From: Isoetes taiwanensis
Taxonomy: Eukaryota; Streptophyta; Lycopodiopsida; Isoetales; Isoetaceae
Reading direction: 5' to 3'
Length of the DNA stretch: 64,000 bases
Assembly (NCBI GenBank): GCA_021234155.1
Contig: JAJEKV010000058.1
Location: forward strand, 6,024,600-6,088,599
In this document: positions 18,716-47,793 of the stretch, piece after piece
How the letters are laid out: every line of letters starts with the position of its first letter
How positions within the stretch are numbered: position 1 is the first letter of the stretch
The notes under the pieces: model-generated
What the model was told of the DNA's origin: nothing
What the model saw: the letters and a program-made list of their open reading frames with translations, nothing else
Database searches by the model: none
Program-made: the position numbers and the translations under genes

Positions 18716-19063
18716 ACGACAAAAACTGGTCGACTTTACTTTTTTATTAATGTGCCAGAACGGTTATTACTTTTTATTATTAATAGTAAATTTGTTATAC
18801 ATGAAACATGGAACACAGTGGCAAATTGTTAAAATGACAAGAACTATTATACTTGAAACATAGGACACGGTAACAAATTGTTTAAACTTATAACAAAAAC
18901 CTTTATTTTTTATTAATAGTGCCAGAATGGGTACAATAGATTGAAAAGCCTCATCCATGGTTATAATAGATTGAAGACACTCATCACATCATCTTTCTAG
19001 GCAGCACCATCTTCATCGTCCTGGGTTCCGTCCTCTTCTGCCTGCTAGTCTAGGTTCAACCTC
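18716..19063. other. Gene-free stretch with a duplicated segment
   Basis: TTTTTATTAATRGTGCCAGAAYGG occurs near 18,740 and 18,905, and TGAAACATRGRACACRGTRRCAAATTGTT near 18,800 and 18,855. It is an internal duplication of roughly 70-100 bp and no gene is seen. Confidence 0.5.
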
Positions 19064-19480: not shown

Positions 19481-19729
19481 TTCCATTTTCTCGCGAAACC
19501 AGTTTCTTCCCTGTTTTATCACACACTTATAGATAGATATGGCACTATTTACTTAAAAAGAAACCAGTTGTCATGTAAAAACCGCTACATTTAATATAAA
19601 ACAGCGCGGTTTTAGTTGTCAAGAAGAGAAGTATGCCGCCATTTACTAAGAAAGTATGAGGAAAAGCACCACGAGAACCTCGAAAGCAGATATTAAATTG
19701 CAAAAAAGCGCCCGGCAAGCAAACAAAAT

Positions 19730-19882
19730 GGCGCGGCCGCCGCGTTTGCTTAAAAATATCTACAAAGCAAATAGCGCAAATGCGCTATTTGCTTTAACAT
19801 AAAACCAAGCAAATAGTGCAGGCGCGCTATTTGCTTTAACCTGAAGACCAAGCAAATAGTGCGCTCGCGCCATTTTCCTATA
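19730..19882. repeat. Subterminal GC-rich inverted repeats of element B
   Basis: Four imperfect palindromes follow one another: AAATGGCGCGGCCGCCGCG, GCAAATAGCGC..GCGCTATTTGC, AAATAGTGCAGGCGCGCTATTT and AAATAGTGCGCTCGCGCCATTT. They share the AAATRGCGC half-site of the CAGCTG palindromes elsewhere in the element, but with different centres. Confidence 0.7.
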
Positions 19883-19974
19883 GATAACATATTTTTTCAG
19901 AAGGCCATGTAGTTATATATTAATAAAAAGTACAATGTAGATACAATTTTTCAAAGTAAATAGAATTTTCTTTA

Positions 19975-22900: not shown

Positions 22901-23270
22901 TTATTGCCGGGGCGTCGCACTGGCAATCCATGCAGTAGAGATCAATGCTGCCACTGACCGGATCTTCCACTGTGCAGCCAAGAAAGTCAAGTCTTCCTTG
23001 TTTCTTGACTTCCCTCATGTTTACAATGATGCCCATCTGGGCCACGGAATACACTCCTGCTTCACCTCCACCTGACTTGACAAGGAGGCAAAGTTTTCGC
23101 CTCTTGTCTCCCTTCGATGGGTCACACCTTCAGTCAAGGGAATGGCTCTAACAATCTCTATACACCAAGACCTACCAGTCAGGACCAGGGTTCTCGATGT
23201 TACCACATTCCAAGCCTTCGGAGCAGCAGCTGCTGCAAGATAAGCATGGTGAGAAAAATGAAATGTATCA
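19975..23270 (-). pseudogene. ParB-like / degenerate DNA methyltransferase-like gene of element B (broken)
   Basis: Read on the minus strand from about 23,270. First comes an N-terminal domain matching element A (GRSWCIEIV versus GRSPSWAVEIM, and PLPSYESREQADIK versus KLPSYNNLQEAGIK), then a long basic linker (22,200-22,560). A ParB/sulfiredoxin-like segment follows (21,700-22,165) with IINGNHSVSAAQ, then EPYVAQIHHLRKQ. After an intron holding five palindromes come an alpha-helical region (20,835-21,480) and a methyltransferase-like end with VLDFFSAGAFSRASL..GR..YEHD, resembling motif I of N4/N6 DNA methylases. The position expected for DPPY reads IDATYS, so catalysis is doubtful. Frameshifts lie near 22,490, 21,296, 20,830 and at an A-run near 20,455, so the copy is dead unless the sequence has errors. 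No HAD domain is found, unlike element A. Confidence 0.65.
21506..21633. repeat. Palindrome array 1 of element B (five copies)
   Basis: Five copies of a 22-bp palindrome, core AATGGCGCAGCTGCGCCATT, start at 21,506, 21,532, 21,559, 21,585 and 21,612. The spacing is a regular 26-27 bp. The copy at 21,532 is a perfect palindrome and the others have one to three changes, mostly in the right half. A degenerate half-site pair follows at 21,641-21,668. The array lies inside an intron of the ParB-like gene, between the donor near 21,698 and the acceptor near 21,467. Confidence 0.95.
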
Positions 23271-23299
23271 ACTCTGCCCGACCCTAAAAGATAAAGAGC

Positions 23300-23650
23300 A
23301 AATGGTGCACCTGCGCCATTTAGAGCAAATGGCGCACCTGCGCCATTTCCATTGTGCTTATGGATCTCTGGTGTTAACGAGGTACATCTTTTGTAAATGC
23401 CATGCACCTCGGTAACACCAGAGACCCATAAGCACAATGGAAATATGTACCTCGTTAACACCAGAGATCCATAAGCACAATGGAAATGGCCCAGCTGTGC
23501 CATTTCCATTGGTATGGGTTCCCATCTAAAGGGAGACACATAGACATTCTAGAAATGGCACACCTGCGCCATTTCATATAACTAGTATAAATACCTAACT
23601 AGCCTATAACTAGCCTAACTAGCCTAGCGAAATGGCGCGTCCGCGCCATT
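23300..23650. repeat. Palindrome cluster 2 and 39-bp inverted repeat in the divergent region of element B
   Basis: Related palindromes lie at 23,300, 23,327, 23,484, 23,553 and 23,630. Two have centre CACCTG instead of CAGCTG and the last has GCGTCCGC. Between them, 23,348-23,386 (CCATTGTGCTTATGGATCTC and onward) is repeated in perfect inverted orientation just before 23,484. A third, slightly diverged copy lies at 23,406-23,443. The cluster sits at the 5' side of the ParB-like gene. Confidence 0.9.
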
Positions 23651-23756
23651 ACAGTTCTCTACGCTACTCCAAATCGATAAGAATAGAAACAACAGAAACT
23701 AACCTGAGCCTGGCTCCAGGATTTTGAGCGAAGATTGTGCCATTGTATTTGTACTG

Positions 23757-23790
23757 CGTATAAAAGTACTGGTTCGTATAAAAGTGACTC
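23757..23790 (+). promoter_or_regulatory. Duplicated TATA-like boxes, divergent promoter region of element B
   Basis: CGTATAAAAGT occurs twice 22 bp apart, in the orientation of the transposase-like gene and about 0.6 kb upstream of its presumed first exon. A TATAAATAC box lies nearby at 23,586-23,594. Promoter function is inferred from sequence alone. Confidence 0.35.
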
Positions 23791-23984
23791 CACCTTTTTT
23801 CGGAACGCTCCCGGATCAACAGGCGCTAGAGAGAGAAAATGTTTGAATAGGAGAGAGAGTGCATAATACCGGGCGCCGCGTATATGGAGGCGGAGGCGAG
23901 TAGGCGTAAAAGTAATGAAATGAAAAGTGGACTGAAAAGAAAAAGATAAGTCTGCGGAAAAGAAAAAAAATTTTACCCGCCCCG

Positions 23985-24392
23985 TCCCGCTTTTTTAATT
24001 TGCCCGCCCGTCAACGGCTCTCCAAATTTTTGAAATTTGAATTTTCCCTGGGTCCGCTTTTAAATTTGGTTCCTACCATCCGCCTCTCCAAATTTTTGAA
24101 ATTTGAATTTTCCCACCGGGTCTCCGCCCTTTCAAATTAGAATTTTCCTACCAGATTTTGAAATTTGAATTTGCCCGCCCGTATTTTGAATTTTGAATTT
24201 GCCTGTCCGTCCACTTCATAATCGGGGCCTTTCGTTGTCTTCGCTTCCTTGGCCGCTTGTCTTTCTTTTGCAGGCCACTTGGCACTTGTCTTCATTCTTC
24301 AGGCGCATTCTTCATTCTTCAGGCGCTTGTCTTCATTCTTCAGGCGCATTCTTCATTCTTCAAGCGCTTTCTTCATACTTCGGGCGCATTCT
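23985..24392 (+). repeat. Two short-unit repeats upstream of the element B transposase gene
   Basis: 23,985-24,205 has four degenerate units of CCAAATTTTTGAAATTTGAA plus TTTTCCC. 24,289-24,385 has about six units of TTCATTCTTCAGGCGC with a 16-18 bp period. Both end just before the ATG at 24,395. The ORFs overlapping the second array in all three frames are repeat-derived. Confidence 0.8.
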
Positions 24393-24768
24393 CTGATGGC
24401 AGATCCGGAATCTTCAATGACCTCCAGGTTAGAGGCTATTCAGTTTTAGTATGTTAAATGTGTACTCTCAATGTAGTTGATGTAGGATGGAACTGGAGAT
24501 GGTAGATTGCATGGGTTAATGTTGTGTATTTAATGAGAATTCTTTTCAGTGTGTTGCGCGTTGACCATAATTCTAAACAGGTTAAGTTTTTGAAGGGTAG
24601 ATCTTCTCTATTTTGCGTCAGTAGATAAGTTCTCAACAATTGATGTCTTAAAGGGTACATTTTCTTTGATTGCTGAATCTTGTAGTAATAAGAATCCGTA
24701 ACTCTAGTTATTAGATATAGCATTTAGATTAAAGATGCCATGTAGGTGTAAATGGGCCATTTTCCTAA

Positions 24769-24984
24769 AAATGGAGCGGCTGCGCCATTTACACGTGAAT
24801 GGGGCAGCTGCGCCATTTTCCTTTAAATAGCGCAGCTGCTCCATTTATGTGTAAATGGTGCAGCTGCTCCATTTAAAGGAAAATGGCGCAGCTGCCCCAT
24901 TTAAAGGAAAATGGCGCAGCTGCCCCATTTACAGGTAAATGGCGCGACATCGCCATTTCGTAAATGGAGCAGCTGCGCCATTTG
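24769..24984. repeat. Palindrome array 3 of element B (eight copies, 28-bp phase)
   Basis: Eight 22-bp palindromes start at 24,769, 24,797, 24,825, 24,853, 24,881, 24,909, 24,937 and 24,963, with intervals of 28 six times and then 26 bp. The core is AATGGCGCAGCTGCGCCATT with compensating variants (GGAGC..GCGCC, GCGC..GCCCC). Copy 7 keeps both arms but has GACATC at the centre. The six-base spacers are themselves often palindrome-like (ACACGT, TTAAAG). The array lies in the first intron of the transposase-like gene. Confidence 0.95.
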
Positions 24985-25885
24985 TCCCATGTCGTCTAAT
25001 TTCTTCCATATTTTCGCGCTATTTTTAACTAAGTGTATGTTATCGAGGGTTGCATATCTTTAACAAGTATGTGTGTGTATTGAATCTTAGAGGAAAAGGC
25101 CCCTGCGTAACCTTCTCCATGGGGATGTGGTTGTTGCCAGGGGACATGAATTGCATAGAGGCCATCTGTATGGCAGGAACATTGCATGGTGCAATGTGGT
25201 CGTGGAGGTCATTGAAGCCATAGTGCCCTCCCATGTGCTTCCCATTCTGTGTGCGGGCGTTAATAACATTGCTGAAGCCGTGGGGACATTTATCGAATGG
25301 CCTCGAAATCAAGTAAGAATCTGTGAAACTGCCTCACCTGTGTCATCGGGAACGTATGATACTGAAACCCCCAACTTGCCTAGTAGTCCCTCTACATCAT
25401 CATCAGACTCAGTGTCGACTGCTCCCCTCCTTCAAACAGTAAGCAGCACAAAGAATATGGTGAACCTAGTCAGTAATAATACTGTGGTTAGTAAGGGTGT
25501 CTTGGTGAATAGAACTTGCATCCATGGGAAGAATGTTGACGCATTCAACGTAGCAGTGCAAGTTACCGAGGCTGTAGTGCCTACCCACATCCTTCCGATT
25601 CCATGTGATGGCGCGGACAACATTGAAGAGGTCGTAAGCATGTTTATCGACCGCCTCTAGATATAAAGATATCATTTTCATTGATTTAGCTACTCCATCA
25701 CCGACCCTCTAATATAGAATCAGAGGCAAAGGTCGATGATGCGATGAAGAAATTGATCCTACAAAGGATCTAGCTACTCGCTTTCCTTGCAAGATAGCAT
25801 CGATGATGATGAACCACCACCTAGTTTCTCAAGAACCTAACTCTTGGATAAGCATTGCCACATTCTTCATGCATGTGACTGAAGT

Positions 25886-26550
25886 CATGGAATAAAATAA
25901 CGGCTAAGGTTAGCCAAATGGCTATTTTGTAGCATTTTTGCCAAGAAAAACGGCTAAAGTAAATGGAAAAAATGCCCAAAAAAAGAAAATTTTAGCCCAA
26001 ATTTTTGCCACCCAAGTGAGTTTTAGGTTGAATAGCCAAACCTTTACCTCCGCATATCCATCGTGACATGGATTAGCTAAATCTAAGATAGAGTGGGCTT
26101 GGAAAAATGGATAGATTAGCCTGCAATTCAACACCAATGTATGTACTAACTTTAAGAAATTTCAAATAGGGTTTATATTTTTCTTTTTTTTCTTTTTCCA
26201 CTTCCTTTCTTGTTCCAAGTACAAAGTTGAAGCATTAGAGGAAAAGGAACAATGTATTCCCCTTTTTTTAGGTTTTTGAACATGTTCATGTATGGTCGTG
26301 TCTTGATTTATGTATTTACAATAAATTCAATGCCTTTACCAAAATGTTTGGATTTTTTTTAATTACTATAGCATGATGGCTAATATTTGTCTTTCCATTT
26401 TGTGAAAGTTTAGCCAAAAGGAAGAAATTGTGATGGAGAAAAACCATTTAGTTTAGCCAAGTGTTAGAAACTTCTAGCCCCAATTTGAAGGTAGTTTAGC
26501 TAAACCTATTTTGGCTACACTAAAATATAGGAGTAGTAATTTATTCCATG
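25886..26550. mobile_element. 665-bp MITE-like insertion in the element B transposase gene
   Basis: The ends are inverted repeats: CATGGAATAAAATAAC on the left and AATTTATTCCATG on the right. They are flanked by ACTGAAGT (25,878-25,885) and TCTGAAGT (26,551-26,558), an 8-bp duplication with one mismatch. The interior repeats GGCTAAAGT/TTAGCC motifs and has no transposase. The 8-bp duplication fits hAT-type insertion. It separates the DUF8039-like exons from the transposase body. Confidence 0.7.
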
Positions 26551-29408
26551 TCTGAAGTAAATATGCAGAGGCTATAATTGTCTTCAGTGATTCCCAGGAT
26601 GCTGTTGACGATGAATTTTTAGGAGACTCAAAGGTAGGCCTCTGTGTGGGAAAGGTGCTTCCTGCACTAATTACAGAGGATCTCAAATGTCATGCTTGTG
26701 CAGAAAGGCCAGCAGAAAATGCACTTGTACAATGGAAAAATAGTGATGTGATGTTGCAGGATGGAAGGACTGTCTCACAACATCTGCAAGCTCGAGAAGC
26801 TAAAGAAAATGAGGATATAGAGCTAGAATCATTTGAAGACAACATTCAGGCTCAATTCAAACGAAAAAGGAAGTATACTTACACAAATAGAATTCCAAGA
26901 GAGCCCAAGGGAAAGAGCAAAGAGGAAAGGCTATGCTCCACAAGTTCCATCAACAAGTTTATGAAGTCAAGCTGCTGCAAAAATACTTTGCAACAAGAAA
27001 CTTACCAAGCATCAAGTACGTGAATTAAGAAAAGAATTTTTATCCCAACCATACAATGCAAGGGTTACGTATTTTTTTGACGTGCTGAGTGTCACTTACA
27101 CAGGAGAAGGAGATGACAGGATAGTGCTCAAGGGGATGGAATTCTGTCTGGCTGGGTGGCGCATGGTTTTAGGTATCAGTCAGTCAACATTTTACAATTG
27201 GAGAAACAGATTTGAAGCAGGTGGAAAGCTAGCTGAACATGGTAATACGGGCTCTAAGAAGCCTAGATCTTCTACATTGGCCACCGAATGCGTGCTAGAC
27301 AGATTCATTCAGGAGAATGCTGAAAGTATTCCCCATAGGAGCAAAAGAGGTAGAGATGATGTAAGAGAAAATGTACGCAAGCTTCCTTCCATTCTTAATA
27401 AGAAGCTTATACATAAAGAAGTTGGTGCAGTCGTTGAAGAGCTTACAGGAACAACTGTAGCCTTGAACTCTTTTTATAGTATATGGAAAAGAGAATTTCC
27501 AGATGTTAGCATTGCAAAAAATACAGCCTTCTCTAAATGCAACATCTGCGTGGTAATTAAGCAAAAGCTGGAAAAAACAAAAGATACAAGCGAGAGAGAC
27601 GAAATCTTGCAATTCAACATTGGGCTCATATGCTAGAGCAATGTTCTTGCAGAAGTCAATATTGGCATTGGAGAGCATTGTCACAGCGGTCTCTAGAAAA
27701 TCATTTATGTATAATAAGTGATAAGATGGATCAGGTTAAGACTTTAGTGCCTAGAAGTCATCATCTAGCAAAATCTGTATGGAGAGGTGATCGCTTGAAG
27801 AGCAGTTTGACAGGAGCTCTGACTCATGGGCATGGTGGTCGTGCCTATGGTCATTTTTCACTTGATTTATGGAAAGATGATTCAAACTTCCACATTGGTT
27901 CACTAATTTCTAGGATATTGCATAACTTGGAATTGGTACAAGAGGACAAGATAGGTGACTTATGTGGAAGTAAGCCTGCAGATTGCAAATGGATGCAAGC
28001 AGTCAAGGATACCAATCCTTTGAAGAATAAACTTGCTTCCATGGCAGAAGTATTGCCAAATACTTCAACTACAACGAACCCTGAGGTGTTCAACCCTCTT
28101 CCTCGAAATCTCTATTTGCAACTTGATAATGCATCAGGCCAAAACAAAAATAGGTATGTCTTTTCATACTTATCTTATTTGACTTGGCTTAAGGTCTTTG
28201 ATGAGATCCAAGTGGGCTTTATGATGGTCGGCCACACCCATGATGATATTGATGCTTTATTTGGAATTTTTTCAACCTTGATGAGTTCATCGGATGCTTT
28301 GACACTACCAGAATGCAAAATCTCCAATTCCATACTTTATTGATGAAGTTCCAAATTGGAAGGCGTTTGTGAAGGGATTCATCCCTGATAAGGGCCAAGG
28401 CCTGGTTGGGCTGAACCATTGCTCTTCAAATTTAAGATGGCAGGAGATTGGCCTGTTATGCAATACAAAATGTGTCCTACACATAAAGAGTGGCTTCCAG
28501 CAGATTCTCCAGGAGTTAGAATGTGGAAAGAGGATGAACATGGTCAGCCAATGCTACCAAGTGGTGTGCCACAAAATATTCCTCCTAGACCAACATTGAA
28601 AGATCTTCTAGGGTTGAAGGATAGCATCAACAAATACATCTCCCTATGGAAGGACATATGTAAGAATCAAGAATCTAGCTTGTTTGCAAGGCAATACACG
28701 GCAAGTGTTGAGTATTGGAGCCAGCTTCTTATCTCTTTGGAGGATGTTGCTCCAGGACGTCCTCAAAATGATGCATTTTGGCCACAAACAAGACAAGCTG
28801 CTCTAGAAAAAGTTGCATTTGTTCCAAAGGTCGACGTATCTGCCTTGGTCACGTGACCTTTACCATCTTATTGTGGCCCGTCAGATGGCCGTCCAGTGTC
28901 GCCTCTTGAAGAGTTTAAATCCTCACATACATGTGACAAAGGGTATGTTTGTTCTAGTCAGACCTGGTGCCACCTGGTTAGGATATGCAGAGGAGAATGC
29001 TGTTCTTGATCCAGAATCTACATATTTTGGCCATATTTATATATCGTGGTGGAAGCCTACTGGAGGGAAGTATAAAGACTGCTTAACTAAGCATTGGCGG
29101 CCTAATCCTTCCGATCCTTCAAGGTACCTTCAAGGTACGAAAATTTAGATGCTATTCATTATGCTTGGGATGCCAATGGCAAGAGGCCAAAAACTGTCCA
29201 GATTCTGAAATATATTGTAGACATGTGGAAAGACATAGCACATTGTTCATCTTAATACATGAGATCTTGTACTTGTAATACATATCTTTCATCTTAATAC
29301 ATAACATCTTGTACATTACTATAATTTAGATCATTACAAGTGCTCTTATGCATTACTATATCTTATATGCCAGAACATCACTACATTATATATTGCTGAA
29401 ATTCTGAT

Positions 29409-29651
29409 TCACTCATCCTCAACACCTGCTGAGGTGATCCCTGATATCTCATAGCTATTGCGCTCAGGAAGCCAAATAAGATGGATCATAACACGAGTTA
29501 GCCCAGGGCAACGAATCTCAGCACCATTTGCTTTGGATTGCAGGTAGGGATCAAGAAGAATACCCCTTATTTGGCAACCGACAAGATCATTGTAGCTCAT
29601 TGAGCACTTGATCGCCTCGATGTGGTGCACAGAAGATGGCAAATAATCCAT
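29409..29651 (-). CDS. Micro-gene 1, 80-residue unknown protein
   Basis: The ORF starts at 29,651 and ends at TGA 29,409. Recognisable blocks are IKCSMSYNDL, LDPYLQSKANG, TRVMIHLIW and the C-terminus GITSAGVEDE. There is no signal peptide or membrane segment. It has a relative 0.64 kb to the right on the same strand and a more diverged one on the opposite strand. Conservation between copies follows codon frame and extends into a matching upstream region with a TATA box, which supports a real gene. It lies just beyond the transposase gene of element B and could be a passenger gene or a separate small family. No function is recognised. Confidence 0.55.
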   Translation of the reverse strand: MDYLPSSVHHIEAIKCSMSYNDLVGCQIRGILLDPYLQSKANGAEIRCPGLTRVMIHLIWLPERNSYEISGITSAGVEDE

Positions 29652-29702
29652 GGGAGATGAATGACCTCTACCGCCGAATGGAGCTGCTTTTATAGCGAAG
29701 TA
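29652..29702 (-). promoter_or_regulatory. TATA box and leader of micro-gene 1
   Basis: On the minus strand TATAAAAG (29,687-29,694) lies 36 bp before the ATG. The interval AGCAGCTCCATTCGG..GTAGAGGTC..TTCATCTCCC is nearly identical ahead of micro-gene 2 (30,286-30,328), with the same spacing. AGCAGCTCCATT also resembles a half-site of the element B palindromes. Confidence 0.5.
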
Positions 29703-30052
29703 AAATTATTGATGTGAATTTTTAGTGTAGATTGTAGCGCCATTATTGAGCGTGTACAAGAGTCATGTACACGTACAAGTATAATGCATATTTTATATGG
29801 ATATGTGACTCATGTAAAATCATGCTTTGTATCTTGGATTTTAGTAAGGTAAAAGTATTTTCGCTTGAGTAAATTAGGTGTGCTTGAAATTAGGGACTGC
29901 TTGCAGAAAAAGTGGAGGTCGAAGAGCACACCGTTACAAATTACTCAGGTTCGATACATCAAATAATATTCATTATGCTTATACATCCTTACATATTCCA
30001 GAAGTGTTTATATCATTATATCTTAACAGGTACACAAGTCATCACTGATTCA

Positions 30053-30285
30053 CTCATCATCAACACCTGCTGAGGTGATGGCATTCAGCTCATAGATCTC
30101 CTGATCAAGAAACCAATAAAGATGGATCACAACACGAGTGAGCTTCCTGCAATGAGTCCATCTGCTTTGGATTGCAGCCATGGATCAAGTTTGACACCCT
30201 TTATCACGCATTCACAAAGATCATTGTACCTCATGTAGCACTTGATGGTTTGGATGTGGTCCGGACGATCAGGCAAGGAAGCCAT
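30053..30285 (-). pseudogene. Micro-gene 2, frameshifted relative of micro-gene 1
   Basis: It starts MASLPDRPDHIQTIKC and continues MRYNDL and LDPWLQSK, matching micro-gene 1. A frameshift near 30,155 then moves the conserved end (LTRVVIHL, AITSAGVDDE) into another frame. The upstream TATAAAAG element at 30,321-30,328 and the leader match micro-gene 1. The frameshift makes this copy probably non-functional. Confidence 0.55.
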
Positions 30286-30359
30286 GGGAGATGAACGACC
30301 TCTACACCCGAATGGAGCTGCTTTTATAGTGAAGTAAAATTATTGATGTCTACTGCATC

Positions 30360-30480
30360 AAAATTATTGGGTATATACGAGTACCATACAAGTATGTATA
30401 TGATCCAATAATTTCTATGTATATACCATCAATAATTTTGGTGGGTATATACCATCAATAATTTTGGTGGGTATAAATAT
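30360..30480. repeat. Short repeats of ATCAATAATTTTGGTGGGTATATA
   Basis: A unit containing CCATCAATAATTTTGGTGGG (period about 28 bp) is present twice, with related inverted pieces (CAAAATTATTGGGTATATA) just to the left. Confidence 0.75.
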
Positions 30481-30529
30481 ACATCAAATTGCCGAGTGCA
30501 GCAACATTGGCCTCCGTCTAGCTATGACG

Positions 30530-30760
30530 CATTCTGGTTCTGAACGTGATTCTATCACTTGATGAATCATGAGGACTTCAAGCAATGCCGCGAGCGAGAT
30601 ATACCGCTTGAAGACTGGCTCACCACTGTTGCCCTCAATCCTCGCCATTGATCCCTTCGATGTTATCATCCATCTTATATGGAATAGAGAGCATCAAATG
30701 TTCATGATCGAAAGGATCTCTGGAGCGCCTTCTGCTGGTTCTAATCATTTAGAAGAGTAA
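30530..30760 (+). pseudogene. Micro-gene 3, diverged relative on the opposite strand
   Basis: The plus-strand frame ends with DVIIHLIWNREHQMFMIE followed by SGAPSAG, which aligns with RVMIHLIWLPERNSYEIS and TSAG of micro-gene 1. The N-terminal half is not clearly conserved, and in-frame stops lie upstream of the available ATG at 30,569. It faces away from copies 1 and 2. Confidence 0.4.
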
Positions 30761-30811
30761 TAGTAGAAGAATAATAGTACTTGTTATCTTATTGTAATCT
30801 GGTTGTGTTAG

Positions 30812-30945
30812 TATACAACAGGTATACATAACCTTTTGTAATACACATAACCATACTATAAGTATTGAGGTGTACTAGTATACAACAGGTATACATAACC
30901 TTTTGTAATACACATAACCATACTATAAGTATTGAGGTATACATA
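30812..30945. repeat. 65-bp tandem duplication
   Basis: TAGTATACAACAGGTATACA with the following ACCTTTTGTAATACACATAA block is present twice head to tail (30,812 and 30,877), nearly identical. It lies between micro-gene 3 and the hAT pseudogene. Confidence 0.85.
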
Positions 30946-31038
30946 ACCCTCCAAGGTATACTATATAAAAAATTATTCCAACTTGTCTTCAGAATTCCAA
31001 ATTTAATGAAACTCTGCTTTGTTGCGATTCAAAAACTG

Positions 31039-36604: not shown

Positions 36605-36758
36605 TAATAAGCACTATTTCATTAATTTGAGAACAATGCATAAAATTGAGAAATTGAAGAGCATATATTAAGTTCCATTTGTTAATACAAATACACAAAG
36701 TTTGAATTGAAATTGAATTACAATTAAATAGAATAGAATAAATTTTTTAACATCTACA

Positions 36759-36866
36759 GAGACCAATAGGTCATGGGACCCATACAATGGGCTAGTACAA
36801 TCATTACTACTAGGATTAAAAAACCCCTGCCTCGAAAGTTTTTCAAGGGAAAAACCTTTGCAGTAA
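36759..36866 (-). repeat. Segment shared with 6,672-6,782
   Basis: In reverse orientation this matches the end of the GC-rich fragment at 5.7-6.8 kb, including GGGGTTTTTTAAYCC and GTATKGGTCCCATRACCKATTGGTCTC-like blocks. It lies between the transposase stop and the left TIR of element A. Confidence 0.7.
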
Positions 36867-36943
36867 TGATGATACTAGACAATCAGAGATAAAACAAAAT
36901 AAAATAAAACACAACTACATTAAATAGTAACTTTGTCCATAAT

Positions 36944-39900
36944 TCAACCCACAAGCTTCAAGTTCCACTTTGCCTTCTCGGCATTCTTCTTTGGTATCTT
37001 GTGTGCATTCAGTTTTGAAATGTCTTTACCTCCCCAAGGTTGATACGAGAACAAGATACAACTTGTTAGTTCGCGTCTTGGAGGATCTGATGGATTTCTC
37101 ACCCATTGTTTACTCCAACAATTCTCATACAATGCCTTTTCATCAGTTTCTTTCTTTCTAGTGCCTCGTGGTGTCCAGTATTGAACCATGAACCAATACT
37201 TATTTGGGTCCTTTGAATTTTCATCTGGAAGCGGGTCTGAGAGTGCTTCCCCTAGCCATACAGGATATATGTCAGGATCGCTAGGTCTGACAAGGACAAA
37301 GCATCCTTTTTTTATGTCCTCACTTACTTCCCATTCTGGCAAGTCATGCCATTTAGGTCTAGATGCTTTGCTACCAACATGCCATGCAGATAAAGGATCT
37401 CGCCTTTTCCTGAATTCTCCAATTTCACAGCTATCAAAGCTTTCACCTTTCCATCGTGATGCAGGTAGAAAACCATCTTTTAAAGGACCAGCTGTAATGT
37501 CTACATTTTGTAAAGAGTCTAGTACTCTTCTCCAATATCCAATAGTATTATAAAGACAAGTAGCCTTTTCTTCCCCAGTGCTAGGGTGTTTCATCATCTG
37601 CTCCCAATGACTAATGAATTGTTGTACTCCTTTAGTCAACGATTGCATGTCCTTCAAGCTTCCAAAAGGTGGCAAGCTTTGTGGCTCACCTGTGGGTATT
37701 TTGGGCTTTCCATTTTCATCACGTTTCCACATCTCAATAGGATCACCCCAATTGTCATCAGAAGGGTGCATCTTACACTGCATAATTGGGATACCTTCTC
37801 TAACCCAAAACTTAAACTGCAATGGTTTAGAATGTCCAGTCAATGCTTCTTTTCCATCAGGCATATAGTCTTGAACAAATCCTTTCCAATCAGGCACTTC
37901 ATCCACAAGGAAGGCAACGGACCTAGGTGATACACTTGATTCAAATATCTCCATCAGTTGTGGTAGCGTGGTTATAGACTCCCTCTTCAAAGATGAAGAA
38001 AACACGCCAAAAAATGCATCGATATCCTCATGGGTATGTCCAACCATGAGAAATCCAACTTTTACTGTCTCAAAGACACCTCTTGCCGTTAAATATGAGC
38101 ATGCTTGAAATAGCCATCGATTCTTATTTTCTTTGAAGCAATTATCCAGCTGTAAACAAAACTCTCGAGGCAAAGGCTTTGGATAAAAATCTGGAACGTC
38201 CTCACTTGTTGTTAACGGCTTGTCACATGGCTTATTAGATGATGAGCTAGATGAAAACCTAATGGAATCCCGTAATGATCTCTGAGATATAAATGCTTGA
38301 TTGTCCATTAGAGCATCAAAAACACCTGTATAGCTAGCTGCCCCTGTGGACTTCAACACGCCTCTTTCCAAATTTCTTAAGCACTTGAATATTGAACCAA
38401 CATGAAAGTTTGGGCCATCCTCCCATAGATCTAAAGTAAAATGACCATATGCGCCAGCACCATGACCATGTGTAAGCATACCTGCTAAAGATATCTTCAA
38501 TTGCTGTGCATTACCACAATTCTTCGGTATTGGCTGGATCCTAGGCAAGAAAGTCTTATGTTGGTCCATTTTATCATGGATGATGCATAAACATTTATCA
38601 GGTTCTAAGTTGGAAAATGTTCTCCATTGCCAATACACGGATCTACAAGACATTTGCTCTGCTTGGTGTGCACGCAATTCCTCAAATAATGCATCATATT
38701 TTGCAGTAACCATAGTGCTCCTCATGGCCTCCCTCAGAGATATACATGTACTGCACTTGGAGAATGAAGAGTTCTTTCCCACTTCCACATTTGGAAAATG
38801 CTTTGCCCATAGCTTGCTAAATGCAGTTTGAGAGATAGAATGCCCTCCTAATCTAGTCATCACCGTATTAACCTCTTCCAAGCACACTTTTTGAATGTAA
38901 GATGGAGGTAACACTTTGACTACTTGTTTAGTCCCGTCAATCCCTACTTTTGCCCTATGTGGCATTGATTCTGCCATACTTTTTACAAGACCATCAAACA
39001 CATTGATAGCTAGCAATGTATTATCTCTTGTCTTCAATGAACCTGTGTTTCCATGCAGAGCTCTTCTAGCACCCATATCAAATTCTTCTTTGCTTCTGTA
39101 GAAAGTAGCATCAGAAATGTTAACTATCCTGCACCATGCCTCTCTGCAAACCCATTTGCCAAAAAGCGAATACTTAAGATGCCCTGTATCATTGTCCCTA
39201 TGGCATGCACCAAATATGGAATATCTCATTGTCCTTCTATCATTGCTATGTTGTCCCCAATATGTAGTCCTAATAGAAAGCAACTCATCTAGAGAGTATT
39301 GGATGGTGCATTGTGAAGGACAACAGGCCATACCCCTAACCAATTGCACTTGCTCCATTGGGCTTAATTGCTCTTTCTCCTTTTTTTTCCTTTTTGGAAT
39401 TGCTTTCTTTCTCATGGAAAATCGGTATGGTCTTTTCCTGATGTTGATTGCCTGCTCATATGGTACCAACTTCACATCATTGTTTGCATTACATTGCATA
39501 GGCAACAACCTACTGCCATCCATGTTCGTAACAAGTGAGATAGGCCATCTCATCAACACTCTAACCTCTAATGACCCCTTGCAAGCTTCACAACCATTAT
39601 TCAAAATGCCAACTTCATCTGGATTTGACGGCATCAATTCACTAATCATCACTCCAACAAAATCTTGTCCTAATGGCTGATTAGAAACAAAATCTAGAGG
39701 GTCAGTTACAATCATGATTCCAGTTGCAAAGCTCTCCGCAGAACAAGCATGCAACATCTTTACATATTTTCCTTTCCATTCGCTTCTCCTCACAACCATC
39801 TCAGGCGCATTCATATTTGATGCAGAACTTGACTTTGCTTGAGACACACTTGACTTTGTTTGTGGTGCACTCGATCCTGCTTCTTTGTTAGCTAGCTATA

Positions 39901-41208
39901 ACATTCAAATAGTTGACAGTTAGCAAACATTGTAATAAAATGGTCCAAATAAAACTGGTTAGATAAATTTGTACAAATTGACATTGTTTTTTGAAAAATG
40001 CATGTTTCATGGACATATGTCCGTATGCAGCACTATTTAGCTACTTAAGCTAAAACTAGAAGAATTATGCATCTTAATGTTCCCAGGAACATAAGAGGCT
40101 TAGGAAGACATCTAAAACTAAAGAGACTAACTAAGCAAACAAGGAGACTTAAAAGAGACTATCTAAGTAAACAACATAAGGATTCAAATAAACGAAAGGG
40201 AAGATATGCTATTAGAACCTATATATCTTTTGGTATGGCCAAAAACTTAGGATTCAAATGTTTATTAAAGTATTGAGGATACCCAAGCCTGGTATCCCCT
40301 TAAATATTAAACAAGAAAAAAAATCACGACAGAGCGGTGGCAGCCAAGCTACAGATCCGGCAAGCACCAATTCTGGATTCAATAAGGCCCAATTCTATCA
40401 CATGCCACCGGATTTCTACAAACAAAGGAAATTTGTAAGGAAGATTCGGATTTCTACCTCAAGGCCAGAGATTATCACATATCAGAGGTCGGCATAGCAG
40501 CATAAAAACGGATGCCATGGACGAATTTAGAGCAGGGTTAGGACGCCATGGACGGATTCAGAACAGGGTTCGGATGCTATGGACAGAAAAAGGGGCAGCA
40601 TCGAATGTTCTGAGCTCTGCTATTTGGGGTCGCTCTGAGGCAGATCCGGATATGAAATAGCCAGCATCTTTTTCATGCAGCAATGATAGATTTAGCCATA
40701 AAAAAGGCAGATCCGGATATAAAATGGAGGAATCGGCCAGAACCCTGCTGCAAAATCCGGCATCTTTAGCCCAGAGCTCCATTGTGTGATGAAAACAGAG
40801 TAACACAAACCCATTTTTCCTCAAAAAACAGAAATTTTCAAACAAGAATGTATGTGGCTTTGGAAACAGAGTTACTGGCCTGGTTTTTCCTCTGAAAACA
40901 GAGTAACACGAACCCATTTTTCCTCCAAAAACAGAAATTTTCAAACAAGAATGTAGTGGACTAACCTCTTTAGCATAGAGAATATCTTTTACTGGCCACT
41001 CCACGAATGATCCCACTGCTTCAGATACGGTCTCAGCTCCAAGAGTTGGTTTCGGCAGCATTATTTCGCCTCCCAATGAGGATCGCACCTCTACGTTGCA
41101 CCATCCAGCTTCAATGCTCTTGCAATGGATTGTCCCAAAGGATTCCATGACAATGCCTTTACCAACAATGTTTCCATCGATAAGAAGCTGGCATTCTGCA
41201 TGAGCCAT
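36944..41208 (-). CDS. DUF7869-like transposase of element A (two exons)
   Basis: Exon 1 is 41,208-40,966 (about 81 codons, donor AGAG/GTTAGT). Exon 2 is 39,895-36,944 (about 983 codons after acceptor TATAG), with no internal stop. Exon 1 is DUF8039-like (GNIVGKGIV..IHC..WCNVEV..LPKP..EAVGSFVEWP), a domain I recall from plant transposon proteins. Exon 2 holds a CxxC segment (CEACKG), basic KKKAIPKRKKK, CCPSQC, a helix-turn-helix-like ISDATFYRSKEEF, SKCSTC, and then the putative catalytic blocks IIHDKMDQ, LQLDNCFKENKNR and GHTHEDIDAFFG, giving D..D..D/E as in RNase H-fold transposases. The C-terminal part (YPVWLGEAL, WVRNPSDP) is also conserved in element B. The intact long frame suggests recent activity. 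The role as transposase is inferred. Confidence 0.75.
40010..40025. repeat. CATATG palindrome in the element A transposase intron
   Basis: TGGACATATGTCCGTA contains a perfect 12-bp palindrome GGACATATGTCC. The same motif is repeated upstream of the ParB-like gene. It lies in the transposase intron, matching where element B keeps its eight-copy array. Confidence 0.8.
40796..40960. repeat. Tandem duplication at the exon 1 donor of the element A transposase
   Basis: AGAGTAACACRAACCCATTTTTCCTC plus the following AACAGAAATTTTCAAACAAGAATGTA occurs twice, about 110 bp apart. The right copy ends next to the intron donor. Confidence 0.85.
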
Positions 41209-43233
41209 AGGACTTTAGACAAAATTTAAGACTGAATAGGAGTTGTGCACAGAAGTAAATTACCTTGGGTTTTCTCTTTAGTAGTATCCTGTGATGCCAT
41301 ATTCAGCCGCAGCCGCTTATGATGTTTTTGATGCCTCAGATAACTCTTCAATTTCCAACAAGACTGAAAATGGAGGTGCAGCCGAAAATGATGAAGAATC
41401 AGCGGGAAGTGGTGAAGAAAGAATTGTAACAGAAAGAAGCGCAGAGGATTTCGGGTTCAAGATTCAATCTTGGACGCCCATGTTTCAAATTTCGAATTTC
41501 TAAAAATAGCATCATTCTCCTTAACAAACCATTAAAGATTTTTCTGTTACACCCACCGCCTCTGATCGAGCGGCTAAAACAAGAAGAAGTGAAGACTGTT
41601 GAAGGCGGAGGAGGCTTCTCAAGAATGGAGGCAGCAAAACATGGACGTGAAGTACTCGGCATGACTTCCAAAAAAAGGCGAAAACCAGGTGGGTGCCCGT
41701 TCTTATTCTTCTTCTTCCTCTGTGAAATCTCTGAAATCTCTGTTGTTATCTCAAGAATAAGAGAACATGCGAGTATCTTTGGCTGCAAAAAGTCCGAGCA
41801 TGATCGTAGCTGATTATTTAGATTTGCTTTAGCCCATCTGACACAAACAAAAATCCTATGTACTACTGAACAAAAAATTGTATCCTGTGTACTACCGAAC
41901 CAAATCATGTGTCCTCGTTGCTTCTGTTAGATTTGCATATCCAAACACCATTTTTTTTTTTAAAATCTACCTTTGTTTTTCGTTTCTTTTGCTTACTTAG
42001 ATTTGCATGCTCAAATATCCCCTTTTTTTTTTCTTTTTACCTACCTTTGTTTTTCATTTCTTTTTCTTACTGCCACATCATCAAATATTACCTTTGAGAT
42101 AATGACCTTAATATTTTCAAGATACCTACTATCCTCCTTTTTTTTTACATTGCCACTATAAATATTAATGGCATTGCCTTCTAGAGGCCAATATTCCTTT
42201 GAGTCCCAAATTACTATTTTTACAACTTGTGATCTTTCTCCTTTTCTTGTTATGTTTGATGTTTGGCTTGCCCTTTTATTTGTACTTTTTTCCCCTTTCC
42301 TTATGTGATTATTGGATAGTGATTGACCATTCCATTGGATAATTGGTTTGGGGTTTTTTAATTAGAGATTAATCTCGACCGTCCATTTGATCCAACAATT
42401 GATCTTAGCCCCTGTCCATAAACCTCTGTGTCTTCGAAATACTTAGTTTTTTTGCTTTGTGTTCTAGTTTGCTTTATAACATAGAGAAAGAAAATATGGT
42501 GTTGTTACGGACACATGTCTTCAAAACTCTTTTTTGGCTTCCATGCTCTTTTGCTTTGGGTTTTAGTTTGCTTTATAATGTACAGAAAAAAAAATGTAGT
42601 GTTGTTACGGACATATGTTTGCAAAACCCTTTTCTTGGCTTTATGCTCTAGTTTAGTTTATAATGCATGAAATGTATCAAAACAAAAAAGAAAACGAAAA
42701 TGCTCTAGTTTATTTTATAGCATAGAAAAAATGTTTATTACGGACATATGTCTGTAAAAGCCTAGTTTTGTTTTGCTTTATTCTCTAGTTTTAAGGAAAT
42801 GTGGATGATGTCTGCAAGCCTCTAGTTTTATTTTGCTTTTCATCTAGATTATTTTATAAGGAAACATGCACAGTGCAGTGAAAATGAAAATGTATAATTC
42901 TTTATTACGGACATATGTCTGCAAACCTTTAGTTTTATTTTGATTTTCATCTGAAAATGTGGAAAGTGCATAGAAAAAAAGGCATAATATTGTATTACGG
43001 ACATATGTCTGCATAGTATCTTATTACTTCTACTTATACTTCTAGTTTTGCCTTTTTGCTAGTTTAGCTTGAAAAGAAAATGTGAGCAGTGCATAGAAAG
43101 GGTAATCCATAGACCTTATTACGGACATATGTCTGTAAACCTCGAGTTTTTTGTTATCTAGTTTATTGTATTATTCTAAGGAATCAAGTTCTAAGCCTCT
43201 TATCTACAGACGTATGTCTGCAAACATCCACTA
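41209..43233. promoter_or_regulatory. Divergent intergenic region of element A
   Basis: 2 kb separates the two start codons. It holds a short ORF (41,291-41,503) without recognised domains, a duplicated T-rich segment (41,945-42,065; CTACCTTTGTTTTTCRTTTC), and the CATATG palindrome repeats. Both genes probably take their promoters from here, though no single TATA box stands out. Confidence 0.5.
42430..43222 (+). repeat. Degenerate repeat carrying seven CATATG-type palindromes
   Basis: Palindrome ACGGACATATGTCTGC or close variants start at 42,507, 42,607, 42,740, 42,907, 42,997, 43,121 and 43,206. They are embedded in a degenerate unit of about 100 bp (CTCTAGTTTTATTTTGCTTT..AAGGAAAATG..AGTGCATAGAAAA). 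A weaker half-site lies at 42,810. The last palindrome ends 12 bp before the ParB-like ATG. The palindrome is better conserved than the unit around it. Confidence 0.9.
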
Positions 43234-46200
43234 ATGGATTTTTTTCTGAAAGATGCAGATGTGCAAAGGGAAATAAAGCAAGTAGGACCAAAAGGCAAAA
43301 TGACAATGGAAGAGAATGATGATGGTGCAATTTTTAAGATTGTTGTTAGTGGCTATGAGGTACCGAGAACTTCTTTATGTGGGAGGAGTCCAAGTTGGGC
43401 TGTAGAGATCATGGAAAGTAAAAAGAAGTATGACCTTTGCTTGCTTTATCGAGAGTCTAATATGATGGCTATGAAAATAGCTGGACAAGTTTTAGGTGTG
43501 GAGGAGATTGATAATGATGGGCTGACTTTGATGGTGGAAGGCCCTAAAACGAGAAGGCCTATATTGTTTGATGGACTGAAACTCCAATACTTTTCCCCAA
43601 GTCTAATGGAAGCAAGCATTAGTGGAGATGCTATGTCATGCGCAACATTTGGATGGAAGCTACCTTCTTACAATAATTTGCAAGAGGCTGGAATAAAAAC
43701 GTCCTTTGATTTGGCATGTAAAATATCTGTAGTGCGGCGAGAAACATATGCAAAAAGTATTATATCCGCATGTGTGCTTGAGCGTTTGAAGAAGAATAAT
43801 AGAGATGAGAGCATCCAAAGGGGAATTATGAATCACAAGAAATTGTGCAATCAAAGGTTGTGCGTAAGAGGAAAGAGAAAATTGTGTCTAGTGCATCCGA
43901 TACTCTCGATCACTCGGGATAAACGAAGAAGAAGGTTGTTCTTGACGGTTGAAGATCGAATGAGATTGATGTTCAACAATTAGCTGAAAAAAAACAGAAA
44001 TGGATATTTTCAGAGGCTGAACAAATGAATGTAGCTCAAGAGGCCTCAAAGGTGCTAGAAAGATGGGAAAAATTTTATCCACTTGGTATTCGACACTTGG
44101 TGGAGATTGATGTAACTAGACTCAAGGTTTGTAAGGGAAAAGCGTCATTGTTCAACCATCGTCCTTATAACGAGGAACATATGGATGAGATATTGGAATG
44201 TATGATTTGGCGCCCGTGTCGAAATCCCAATCCAGCTGATGTTCTCCCCGTGAAAGTGAATACACATATACCATTTCCTTGGACTGATGAAAAAGATTTT
44301 GCAGATCCAACAATGGAATTTCTTGTTATAGAGGGTCAACATTCAACTGGAGCAACACAAGTGTTGCTTGGGATGGCTGAATGCACAGAAAAAATGAGAA
44401 GATTGTTCTCAAAAAGGTCTTGCAGAGTGTTAGCTGTAAACACTCCACCTCTTGAGCTGGCAATTATTAGTCATGCACAAAACGAAATCAACTATGTATC
44501 GGCATATAAAAGGTTATCTACATTTATCTTTCTTTTGTATTTGAGTACATCTATTTTTTTCATTGTTTGATCTATATTGCTTGTTTGTATAGCCCTTATG
44601 TTGACCAAATCAGACATGCGCGTGCTCAATGGATAGCGCTTGGAAGACCTGAAAAGGCAATAGCTAATGCTGGAAAAAGCACTCGTTGGGAGGTATGTGA
44701 TACCATTTCCACTTGCATTTGAGATTTAGATAGTTATAGTCTTTGTTGCATTATAGGAATTTGAGGAATACTGTAAGCTTACCATTGGAGCAATAAGTAA
44801 TCGGCAAAGATCGTCAACAAAAGAGAAACCAAGAATGAGCGAACATCTGGCATTTATTTGCTTAAATGATGCTTGTTGGAAAAATTGGGATTTAATATGG
44901 ACTAAATGGATGGCAAAGCAATTAAATCAGTGGAATGGGAAGCCACCTGCAGAACCATCACTTGATTTTTTCAATACTAAGTTAATGCGTGATGTGCAAG
45001 GTTTACTTCCTGAGGAGATGTTGGATTTAACAAAACGCATATTAAGTGGTGAGGTGTTTATGACTAAGCCAGGAAAGCAAGCGGGAAAGCATACAGATGT
45101 AATGGATATGAATGGGTATGCTGTTAAATTGAAACAGAGAAGGGTAATAAGAAATGGTATTGCTTCTTATATTAACTTGATCCAACGAAAGAAACATGCT
45201 ACCTTTGAGGACCATGCCAAAAAATATGGTATCACTGATGAAGAAGTAGACAAATGTCGCAAGTGGGCCGGAACTTACATTACCTCAGTGCTACAAAAGA
45301 ATAAGAAGGAGGAAGATCTTCCCAACATAGTTTTGGATTGGATACACGATAAGTTGGGACTGGATAGTGAGAAAGTTGATCCTAATAAGATGTCTTCTCC
45401 TTTTATAATAGCACAAGGTGTTAAAGGTTATGTTGAGCCAGGAGTTCCTAAAGGCCCCATATCCCTTTTTGTTTTAGATTTGCATCTTGCTGCACGTAAG
45501 AACGAAAATTGGGACGCAGATGATTGGGAACAATTTTGGAAAAGGTGTTCCACACTAACCTCATGTGATACATATACAATAATTTTATTCACTCCACCAG
45601 GTCCACAGTGTTGGTCTGCAATGAGGTCAGTTGGGACAATGGAATGTGATAAACATATAGTGTACTCAACCTATGAGCACGACTCTCCATCAAAGCAATA
45701 CATTCCTTGTGATACTACGTTCTCATTTTGTTTCATAATTATGCTTGCGAAGCCAAATGATAAGAACTTAAAAGCAGGACTTTGTTGGACAAGCTCTAAG
45801 CCAATACACACTATGTTCCTGAAAGACGATATAGAAAGCCGATCATCGCACTTATATAAGTATCTTGCAGATGTTCCTTCTTACTCAGATGTTGGAATGG
45901 AAGGTGGGGTTGTTAATTCCGTTTCCATGAGACCGCATGTGGCAAAGTATTTGGTGCAAATGTTTACAAATAAAGATACTATGGCATGTGAATGGTATAT
46001 GCATGGGAGTATAAGTCAAGCAGCTATATGCCTTGGGAAAAAATGTGTGTCAATTGCTGCTGGAAGCGTAGAGTATGAGTTTTGTGAGAAGTTTTTGAAC
46101 AACGTTGTGGTATATCAAGAAAGCCTACATAAGAATGATGCAAAGAATAAGAAAAAAGATGTACACTTATTGGATAGAGCAGATAGTCCATCCAACATAG

Positions 46201-47405
46201 AGGAACCAGAAATCCATGACACAGATGAGTCTGATTCTGAGGGTGATATTTCACCATCTGTTGCTGCACAAATTGTGAAGAAGAGACGAGAGAACGCTAT
46301 GTAAGTTTTTTTATTCGATCATATATGTCTTACTTCGCATTTCTCATTTATTCAATTTTGAGTTTGATGCAGGTTGCACACATTAGAAAAGCTAGAAGCC
46401 TCGTCGGAAAGTGCTAGCACATCAGGCCAAGACATGCAACTCATGTTGGTGAACAATGAGGTGGTGGACGATGATAGAGGTATGGTTATGCTTAAGGAAC
46501 CTTCTGTGCATGAACCAAATAATGAGGTTATTGATACAAACATGGAAGATGCAGCAGTTATTCACATTGATGGAGAGGATATTGATATAGAGCCCCTAAA
46601 TGTAAATCAAGTGCAAAAAGATGACTCTATGCTTCATGATGATATAGGCACTAGTAATGAAGACCATATGAATTTAGATGAGATGCCAAAAGATGATGTT
46701 GGAAGTGCTAGTAAAGAACAAGAGAAGGATGCCATTGACCAATTCACGAAGAAGTTGCTTGTCTTAGATTGCAATGGCATTCTTTATAGAATCTATCAAA
46801 CAGGACATCATGATCCCTCAATATATGATCAGCCACCTGTATTCAATCATTGCCGGTATATCTATCCACGTCCGAAGGCATATGAGTTATTGATGGCTTG
46901 TCTAGTACATTTTGATGTGGCTCTTTGGTCAGTGTCTACTATGGATACTTTATTGGATGCTTTGGATGCATGTGGCCTTAGTAAGCTCAAAAATCGCTTC
47001 TTGTTCATTTGGGCACAAGCAGAATGTGAGAAAATGTTTCTCAATATCAAGGAACTGGGAAATACACAGATTTACTTAAAGAATTTGAAGAAGGTATATG
47101 GAAAGTTTAAGGGCAAGTATAATGGAATGAATACGTTCATGCTTGACGATGCAGCTTACAGATGCTATAATAACTTGGATAATGCAGGATTTCCAAAGCT
47201 ATATGAGCCTTCTGATTATAGAACTGATAACTATTTGATGACAGATTTGTTGCCAATGCTATATGAAATTGAGAAGTCTTCTGATGTAGTAATGGCATTG
47301 AACAACCTTGGGGAGCTGAAAGTAATTGACCCTACCAATGCAGTTGTCTTGGAGCAAATCAAGGAGAAGAAGAAGGCACGTGATGCCTCAAGTTCTATCA
47401 CATAA
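43234..47405 (+). CDS. ParB-like / methyltransferase-like / FCP1-HAD fusion gene of element A
   Basis: Approximate exons are 43,234-43,983; 43,986-44,513; 44,593-44,692; 44,757-46,300; 46,373-47,405, with GT..AG ends for the last three introns. The N-terminal domain matches element B. At 44,318-44,360 FLVIEGQHSTGATQ is a ParB/sulfiredoxin-like motif, followed by SPYVDQIRHARAQW. 45,400-46,100 resembles a methyltransferase fold, but its motifs are eroded (FVLDLHLAARKN; ACEWYMHGSISQAA). An acidic linker precedes a clear FCP1/NIF-type HAD domain (46,740-47,330): LLVLDCNGILYRI, VALWSVST, LKNLKKVYGKF, FMLDDAAYRC, DNYLMTDLLPML. The second motif-I aspartate is Asn, as in some plant relatives, so phosphatase activity is uncertain. 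Two in-frame stops or a frameshift near 43,800-43,980 need explaining, so the first junction may be wrong or damaged. Confidence 0.65.
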
Positions 47406-47793
47406 GAACCTTAACAATGACTCTACTAGTTTATGTTGTATTGTCTAATTCAAAGTTTTAATATGCAAAAAACTATAATGTGACTCAAGTTGTATTGTAT
47501 CTTATCTTATCTTGTATTGTGTGAAGTTAATCTTTAAAACTTTAATGTTTCTCATCTACAATTGGCCACTATGAAAATCTTTGATAATAAAATTATGTAG
47601 TTATTTGAAAAAGTTGTCTTTGTTTGAAATTTGTAATATGATTTGACTTTTAGCTACTATGAAAATCTTTTTAAGTTTCAAAGTTATTTACTGTTGTATA
47701 GTTCATTTTATATTATATTTATGCTAAAGTGTGTCCGTGAAGCATGCAAATGAGAAAGTGGTTATTCTCAAATTAACGAAATAATGCTTTAAT

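Follow-up and report, generated by a model that had tools for sequence, protein, structure and literature searches.

The stretch analysed here (the window) comprises 64,000 nucleotides of Isoetes taiwanensis contig JAJEKV010000058.1, positions 6,024,600 to 6,088,599 (G000:C1065:6024600-6088599 in the searched genome of 1.66 Gb and 1110 contigs), and holds at 36609-47789 a DNA transposon of 11,181 bp, which we term element A. This element lies in a copia sequence between two copies of the target site duplication (TSD) TAAT, at 36605-36608 and 47790-47793, both identified by comparison of the flanks and from empty sites. Its left terminal inverted repeat (TIR) AAGCACTATTTCATTAATTTGAGAACAA (36609-36636, forward strand) and its right TIR (47762-47789, reverse strand, placed by TIR alignment and right-end genome matches) match at 25 of 28 positions; the TAAT duplication and the imperfect 28-bp TIRs described in a first-pass annotation of this DNA were confirmed, as were the two divergent genes that it had placed between them. 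Searching the genome with the terminal sequences, a check which that annotation had proposed, gave 20 matches for the left 152 bp, 11 of them covering the terminal region; nine of these 11, among them the copy in the window, start at base 1, and the other two at bases 2 and 16. The right 200 bp gave 21 matches, 14 of which end on exactly the last base of the element. Copies with different ends had been named as a point that would count against a mobile unit. Here the ends are found repeatedly, although in two cases the left end is short, by 1 and 15 bases, and seven of the 21 right-end matches stop before the last base.

At all six loci where both ends of element A were found, the 4-bp flanks are identical, with five distinct insertion sites and the TSDs TAAT (window), AGCT (C949 and C1037), TCCA (C1100), ATTA (C1027) and AACC (C969). 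The C949 and C1037 copies were counted as one event because they share their flanks; they occupy the same insertion site, so the element was perhaps carried along in a segmental duplication. The distance between the ends is 23 kb at C969 and 29 kb at C1100, and nested insertions were therefore assumed at these two loci. Across families, eight distinct insertion sites have both ends, each with matching 4-bp flanks (the search at C976 retained only TSD-matching end pairs, and the best unfiltered pairs fall at the same place). The copia left flank of element A has 40 genome matches including the window's own, and all six of the copia paralogs that were fetched lack the element, with a single TAAT (four paralogs) or CAAT (two) at the junction. 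In the intact copia paralog L054, the protein reading, followed by eye in L054 itself, runs on across the insertion point. These data clearly show that element A is a real, exactly bounded and repeatedly inserted DNA transposon, and the 4-bp duplications, further copies and empty sites all uphold the earlier proposal of a mobile unit with exact ends. In addition, a left end whose copia flank is almost identical and which also has TAAT was observed 62 kb upstream of the window element (L002, G000:C1065:5999127-6000400), and is perhaps a duplicated segment or a partial copy of the window element's insertion.

On the reverse strand, element A carries a gene for a DUF7869 protein (main exon 36944-39847, open frame of 983 codons; Pfam PF25273, E 5e-41), whose best-scoring stretch by Pfam match and motif alignment (37760-38179) contains LQLDN (D568) and HTHEDID (D610); a possible first exon, which has no Pfam match, lies at 40969-41208 on the same strand. 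The protein has at least 59 matches in its own genome (best 47 of 17,172 candidates scored), with identities of 34-100%. The Asp residues of D(K/G)MDQ (DKMDQ or DGMDQ), LQLDN and HTHxxID are present in five of the six aligned rows, and the sixth (L053) is a fragment in which the first Asp motif is present and the third missing. On this sequence evidence the long DUF7869 protein is the best candidate for the transposase of element A, as had been proposed, and it is a putative DDD transposase with the three conserved Asp residues as the candidate triad. A DUF8039-like N-terminus was considered and rejected as it had no Pfam match; a profile search of the PDB with the transposase (query A3) returned only two matches, with non-significant E values of 1.1 and 1.4; and a literature search on DUF7869 found no paper.

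The second gene lies on the forward strand. Its N-terminal open stretch, found among the open reading frames, spans 43234-43983 (the frame seems to break after about 43,840) and is followed by a ParB-like exon with a GQHS motif at 44025-44570, recognized by profile comparison with its counterpart in element B (see below), by an exon at 44835-46304 that aligns with N6/N4 DNA methyltransferases but has degenerate catalytic motifs, and by a C-terminal NIF-type HAD domain at 46374-47405 (PF03031, E 3.7e-10; LVLDCNGIL, with Asn for the second Asp). The first two of these stretches are in different frames, so the window copy may be broken or may hold an unrecognised intron. From alignment and profile comparison, the gene is best read as a ParB-like domain, then a degenerate N6/N4 DNA methyltransferase, then a HAD/NIF domain. 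The ‘ParB/HAD’ protein of the first-pass annotation is thereby refined, with a degenerate methyltransferase now added between a ParB-like and a HAD part and the second Asp of the HAD motif found to be Asn.

A second complete element of the same kind, element B, occupies 19447-31019 of the window (11,573 bp, forward strand), with the TSD TGTT at 19443-19446 and 31020-31023 and perfect 25-bp TIRs AAGCAGAGTTTCATTAAATTTGGAA. It holds a DUF7869 transposase piece (27561-28340, forward strand; PF25273, E 4.7e-34), a ParB-like exon with a GNHS motif that is divergent to this transposase (21599-22288, reverse strand) and a methyltransferase motif-I relic (VLDFFSAGAFS; 19975-20451, reverse strand), the latter two being recognized by alignment and having no Pfam or NCBIfam hit. 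Element B had not been sought: the palindrome rule described below led to it, when a window chunk (22201-29600) that held eight palindromes in the first control run proved to lie inside this element. Neither element B nor any palindrome array figures in the earlier finding on element A.

Divergent pairing of the two genes recurs in the genome. In the near family, the matched stretches are divergent and 5-8 kb apart at the window (C1065), C949, C1037 and C1027, and divergent and 18-19 kb apart at C969 and C1100, where nested DNA is assumed; distant families show divergent pairing at 5-8 kb at C1032, C1030, C995, C976, C1056 and C952. At C1031, a locus of lineage C, a DUF7869 transposase (PF25273, E 3.2e-39) is divergent to a ParB-like and methyltransferase gene. 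The ParB-like domain of this gene matches TIGR03764 with an E value of 2.8e-4 (20.6 bits, below the curated cut-off of 143.75), and its methyltransferase looks intact (PF01555, E 1.3e-18, 68 bits against a cut-off of 26.7; motifs DLPYGF and DAFSGSGTT). An opposite-strand ParB-like and N4C/N6A methyltransferase gene is thus present in lineage C, whereas the methyltransferase is degenerate in the window lineage. Across the genome, PF01555 has at least 150 matches, all above the cut-off (best 150 of 1,444 candidates).

The termini are also shared. A 12,069-bp element at C976 has termini AAGCCATAATTCATTAAACTGG and the TSD AAAA, and related termini were found as one end each at C1030, C995 and C1032. 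The TIR core conserved across families consists of AAGC, five bases and TTCATTAA, and termini begin with AAGC in the window family, element B, C976, C995, C1030 and C1032, and with AACC in C1066. The C1066 element (C1066:8251660-8259058, L053) is a transposase-bearing relative of 7.4 kb with perfect AACCATCATTCATTTAAATTGG ends and the TSD AGAG; its transposase-like fragments have no Pfam hit, and the relation lies in alignment (34% identity over a fragment) and in the termini. No ParB-like frame was seen in the open-reading-frame listing of this element, and the second gene therefore looks accessory. A convergent layout considered for C1066 was rejected, the transposase there belonging to its own 7.4-kb element. 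The first-pass annotation would have counted it against a mobile unit if the two genes occurred separately in unrelated single-copy loci. Both genes are repeated and not single-copy. Some separate occurrence is nevertheless conceivable: among the matches listed, many transposase or ParB-gene matches have no partner nearby, and the C1066 relative is the case just described.

The ParB-like exon of the window has no profile hit, yet it is alignable by way of element B. In single hhalign comparisons, each of which scored above 20 column shuffles, the ParB-like domain of the window lineage (lineage A) matches that of element B with an E value of 2.1e-20, and the two combined match lineage C with 3.8e-4. 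The corresponding values for the methyltransferase are 1.4e-4 for A against B, 5.4e-3 for B against C and 0.021 for A against C. Motif I forms a series from DAFSGSGTT (lineage C) through DFFSAGAFS (element B) to CEWYMHGSIS (lineage A), and the (D/N)PPY-type and FxGxG motifs are lost in the window lineage and lineage B (LDLH, LDLY, LNL or INM; CEWY..G in the window exon, A1). The degenerate methyltransferase exon is nevertheless under purifying selection in the relatives tested, with ratios of non-synonymous to synonymous substitution (dN/dS) of 0.12 (C976/C995), 0.32 (L036/L038) and, for ten pairs from five copies of lineage B, 0.17-0.30. The HAD domain starts with DCNG in the window copy, and DxNG was found in 14 element loci by a search pattern that is blind to DxDx(T/V) copies; the second catalytic HAD Asp is therefore absent in the window copy and in those 14 loci. 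The DxDx(T/V) motif of catalytic HAD/NIF phosphatases does not occur in the window copy, despite its PF03031 domain. Neither the methyltransferase exon (A1) nor the ParB exon (A2) found a match in profile searches of the PDB, and searches of viral contigs with queries A2 and A4 gave no relative.

What is new here is that element loci hold lineage-specific arrays of 20-bp palindromes, located between and beside the coding exons. In element A, a pattern search placed seven copies of TTRCRGACATATGTCYGYAA (0-2 mismatches) at 42505-43223, just 5′ of the second gene, and a single member of the family (3 mismatches to the search pattern) at 40007-40026, beside the 5′ side of the transposase exon; eight such sites at ≤3 mismatches in the window compare with 0.02 expected. 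The exact window palindrome TTACGGACATATGTCYGYAA has 16 genome matches, 14 of them in or beside window-family copies, and the same pattern read backwards has none. Element B carries its own array, of AATGGCGCAGCTGCGCCATT, with 19 sites at ≤4 mismatches over 19770-24982. Most sites of both elements occupy the middle of the element, 5′ of each gene and between exons. Relatives have the 20-bp palindromes TTACAGACACTTGTCTGTAA, TTTCAGACATCTGTCTGAAA, TTGCGGGCACGTGCCCGCAA and TCACGGGCATGTGCCCGTGA, and the palindromes of lineages B and C are TCTCGACTCGCGAGTCGAGA and AGTGTATTCCGGAATACACT, with 3,786 and 1,925 exact genome copies respectively against none for the backward-read control; for these two, the places considered are the first among the genome matches listed. 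An exact lineage C palindrome lies 0.9-1.7 kb upstream in six of the seven PF01555 matches listed on contigs C1-C97. Under a looser rule (8 of 10 pairs, ≤4 mismatches, family of ≥3), a palindrome family was found in 18 of 20 element loci and in none of nine control stretches, and these nine and 20 shuffles of each held at most two palindromes. The control set excludes two window chunks that overlap element B, and window 14801-19446 was also not rechecked. Seven lineage B stretches of 7.3 kb each (L039-L045), taken from the ParB-gene matches, contain 4 to 14 palindromes like TCTCGACTCGCGAGTCGAGA, within the ParB-HAD gene and around it.

The reading that we favour, and consider fairly probable, is that element A is a cut-and-paste DUF7869 transposon, probably Sola1-like, whose second protein would bind the palindromes of its own family. 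Since TSDs and empty sites are both present, excision and insertion with 4-bp staggered cuts may be inferred; the DUF7869 protein, presumed to be of the RNase H-fold DDD type, would act on the AAGC... inverted repeats and make the 4-bp staggered cut. The second protein would descend from a ParB-like/CcrM-like DNA methyltransferase and may, as a dimer, bind the palindromes of its own family, a putative binding suggested by the lineage specificity of the sites, their kept palindromy, their place beside the gene and their absence from C1066-type stretches. In lineage C, where the methyltransferase motifs are intact, the protein could methylate the element or its palindromes. In the window lineage and lineage B, where these motifs are lost and a degenerate HAD domain follows, it would be a catalytically dead recognition factor, most likely serving sequence-specific binding or as an anti-silencing or regulatory platform, like VANC on VANDAL elements; anti-silencing, autoregulation and marking are the candidate outcomes of binding. 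A broader reading, to which we give an even chance, is that a plant transposon superfamily domesticated ParB/parS-like recognition, each lineage pairing its own protein with its own 20-bp palindrome, some methylating their own DNA by adenine or N4-cytosine methylation and others, the window's included, being pure recognition factors that shield or activate their own copies. For two lineages, this reading involves thousands of palindrome copies spread through one genome.

A number of observations weigh against our favoured reading. The window's own second gene looks frame-broken; its 489-amino-acid methyltransferase exon and the preceding ParB-like exon have no Pfam hit, NCBIfam gave no ParB or methyltransferase hit for the exons of the window or of element B, and Pfam gave none for the scanned relatives of the window lineage and lineage B. 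The direct comparison of lineages A and C for the methyltransferase is narrow (score 25.7, shuffle maximum 23.9), and the HAD exon, with a dN/dS of 0.66 in the one close pair, is under weak constraint. Single-sequence AlphaFold models, with predicted local distance difference test (pLDDT) scores of 37 and 39, were uninformative and did not confirm the transposase fold. At C1034 (5-7 kb) and C1069 (24 kb), both genes are on one strand. As for the palindromes, two of the 16 exact element A sites (C1081) are separated by 23 kb from the closest family match listed, no palindrome is listed near one of the seven PF01555 matches (C29), L035 and L038 lack a palindrome family, and the looser rule gives just three palindromes for element A itself. 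The 20 element loci are also not independent, since close relatives make up two groups among them, L036-L038 and L039-L045.

The palindromes might instead be binding sites of the transposase, used in transpososome assembly, with the second protein having an unrelated role. Where the palindromes differ between lineages, the transposases and the second proteins do so too, so covariation alone cannot assign the binder, and one site at C976 is 0.3 kb away from an end, as this alternative would have it. We nevertheless consider it unlikely: the sites of elements A and B are mostly mid-element, the outermost element B site being 0.3 kb inside the left end and the rest further in; the C1066-type stretches L053, L060 and L061 lack a palindrome family, no ParB-like frame having been noticed there (L060 and L061 are partial and had no ParB search); and the exact lineage C sites stand upstream of the methyltransferase in six of the seven listed cases. 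Slightly less likely still is a reading of the palindromes as sites for host transcription factors, or as plain tandem-repeat noise that copying has preserved. The regular spacing of some arrays, 26-28 bp in element B and about 42 bp in lineage C, is what tandem duplication gives; against this, the sites stay palindromic although their sequence is entirely different from one lineage to the next, a factor of the host should not vary with the element family, and 20-bp palindrome families of ≥3 are absent from the nine control stretches and the shuffles.

Two further alternatives concern the element and its second gene. It is doubtful, although a real possibility, that the superfamily of the element is not Sola1 but a separate one and that the accessory gene is convergently similar: the likeness to Sola1 comes from descriptions and not from Sola1 sequence or termini, whereas the 4-bp TSD, the similar TIR length and the opposite-strand ParB-methyltransferase gene agree with Sola1 as described in the parts available of two reports (PMC12477816, PMC6875170). 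The second gene could also be a passenger captured from the host that does nothing for the element, which would fit the frame-broken look of the window copy and the existence of a relative in which no ParB-like frame was seen. This we hold to be very improbable, as the gene is kept under purifying selection in divergent relatives (exon identity down to 25%) and the palindrome array usually lies beside it.

The Sola groups were reportedly defined by Bao and colleagues in 2009 by features that include a DDD transposase, and the Ectocarpus paper on Sola1 cites earlier reports from green and red algae. That paper describes, in the passages available, a 21.5-kb Sola1 element (Sola1-1_Ec32) with an opposite-strand ParB-like/methyltransferase protein of 1104 amino acids, which its authors suggest may bind and modify its own transposon (PMC12477816). 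The claim in the first-pass annotation that pairing with a ParB-like gene was undescribed is therefore not supported. Sola1-1_Ec32 is, as described there, a large element in which, as in lineage C, the strand opposite the transposase carries a ParB-like/N4C-N6A methyltransferase gene; the window lineage differs from that description in its degenerate methyltransferase, HAD/NIF domain and palindrome arrays, the string ‘palindrom’ being absent from the text and a HAD domain from the passages available (PMC12477816). From partial texts, a choanoflagellate Sola1 (SrosS) has an inverted terminal repeat (ITR) of 32 and a TSD of 4 (PMC6875170), and Sola1 is listed for the moss Physcomitrella (PMC9033089). 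Given these reports of the Ectocarpus pairing, the TSD and ITR and the moss, the element is most likely Sola1-like, being set beside Sola1 by description and not by sequence, and the pairing has precedent.

VANDAL elements have a MULE transposase and a TSD of 9-10 bp, whereas the TSD here is 4 bp and the transposase is a DUF7869 protein. In the parts available of two reports, VANC, which VANDAL elements of Arabidopsis encode, binds to arrayed, family-specific motifs located upstream and in introns, which diverge together with the protein, and it lifts silencing (PMC5735166, PMC10398659); of known systems it is the nearest parallel in how it works. The likeness would lie in an element-encoded, DNA-binding accessory protein and in short, family-specific, arrayed motifs with rapid divergence between families; the VANC motifs, however, are 8-9 nt against 20 bp here, and ‘palindrom’ is absent from the available text of PMC5735166. 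VANC binding is proven, whereas palindrome binding here is putative, and VANC is a works-like analogy only. With bacterial ParB/parS the elements share a ParB-like N domain, the GNHS/GQHS motif and palindromic sites that are arrayed close to the gene; the differences are that TIGR03764 is below its cut-off in lineage C and that the 20-bp sites are of other sequence than parS, which is 16 bp. CcrM-type N6/N4 methyltransferases (PF01555) resemble the lineage C exon (68 bits, DLPY and DAFSGSG motifs), whereas both catalytic motifs are gone from the window lineage (LDLH, CEWYMHG). The termini of EnSpm/CACTA and Chapaev elements begin with CAC, and those here with AAGC or AACC. A literature search on ParB with DNA transposons found only the Ectocarpus paper, and one on Sola1 in lycophytes and land plants gave nothing useful among the best 12 of 619. 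The form with a degenerate methyltransferase and HAD domain, the lineage-specific palindrome arrays and their genome scale were not found in the literature searched, mostly by titles and the starts of abstracts, and a term search of the available text of a survey of N6-methyladenine found no mention of ParB or land plants (PMC12695648).

In this context, the genome supplies candidate binding sites for the bind-and-modify suggestion made, in the passages available, by the Ectocarpus authors (PMC12477816), and it offers palindromes that differ by lineage together with lineages with and without an intact-looking methyltransferase. If that suggestion holds, transposons of a plant would possess a means of self-recognition that resembles VANC in how it works but is assembled from different components, recognises 20 bp and may include adenine methylation.

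Some minor observations concern individual copies. Hypermutation of the C1037 copy was considered and rejected, as its DNA is 96% identical over the transposase region, and its low protein identity is therefore more likely to come from frame breaks. A C-terminal transposase query taken from L053 gave at least 150 matches (best 150 of 7600 candidates). At L046, an open frame whose resemblance, by eye, to a PPR protein points to a land plant adjoins a methyltransferase exon.

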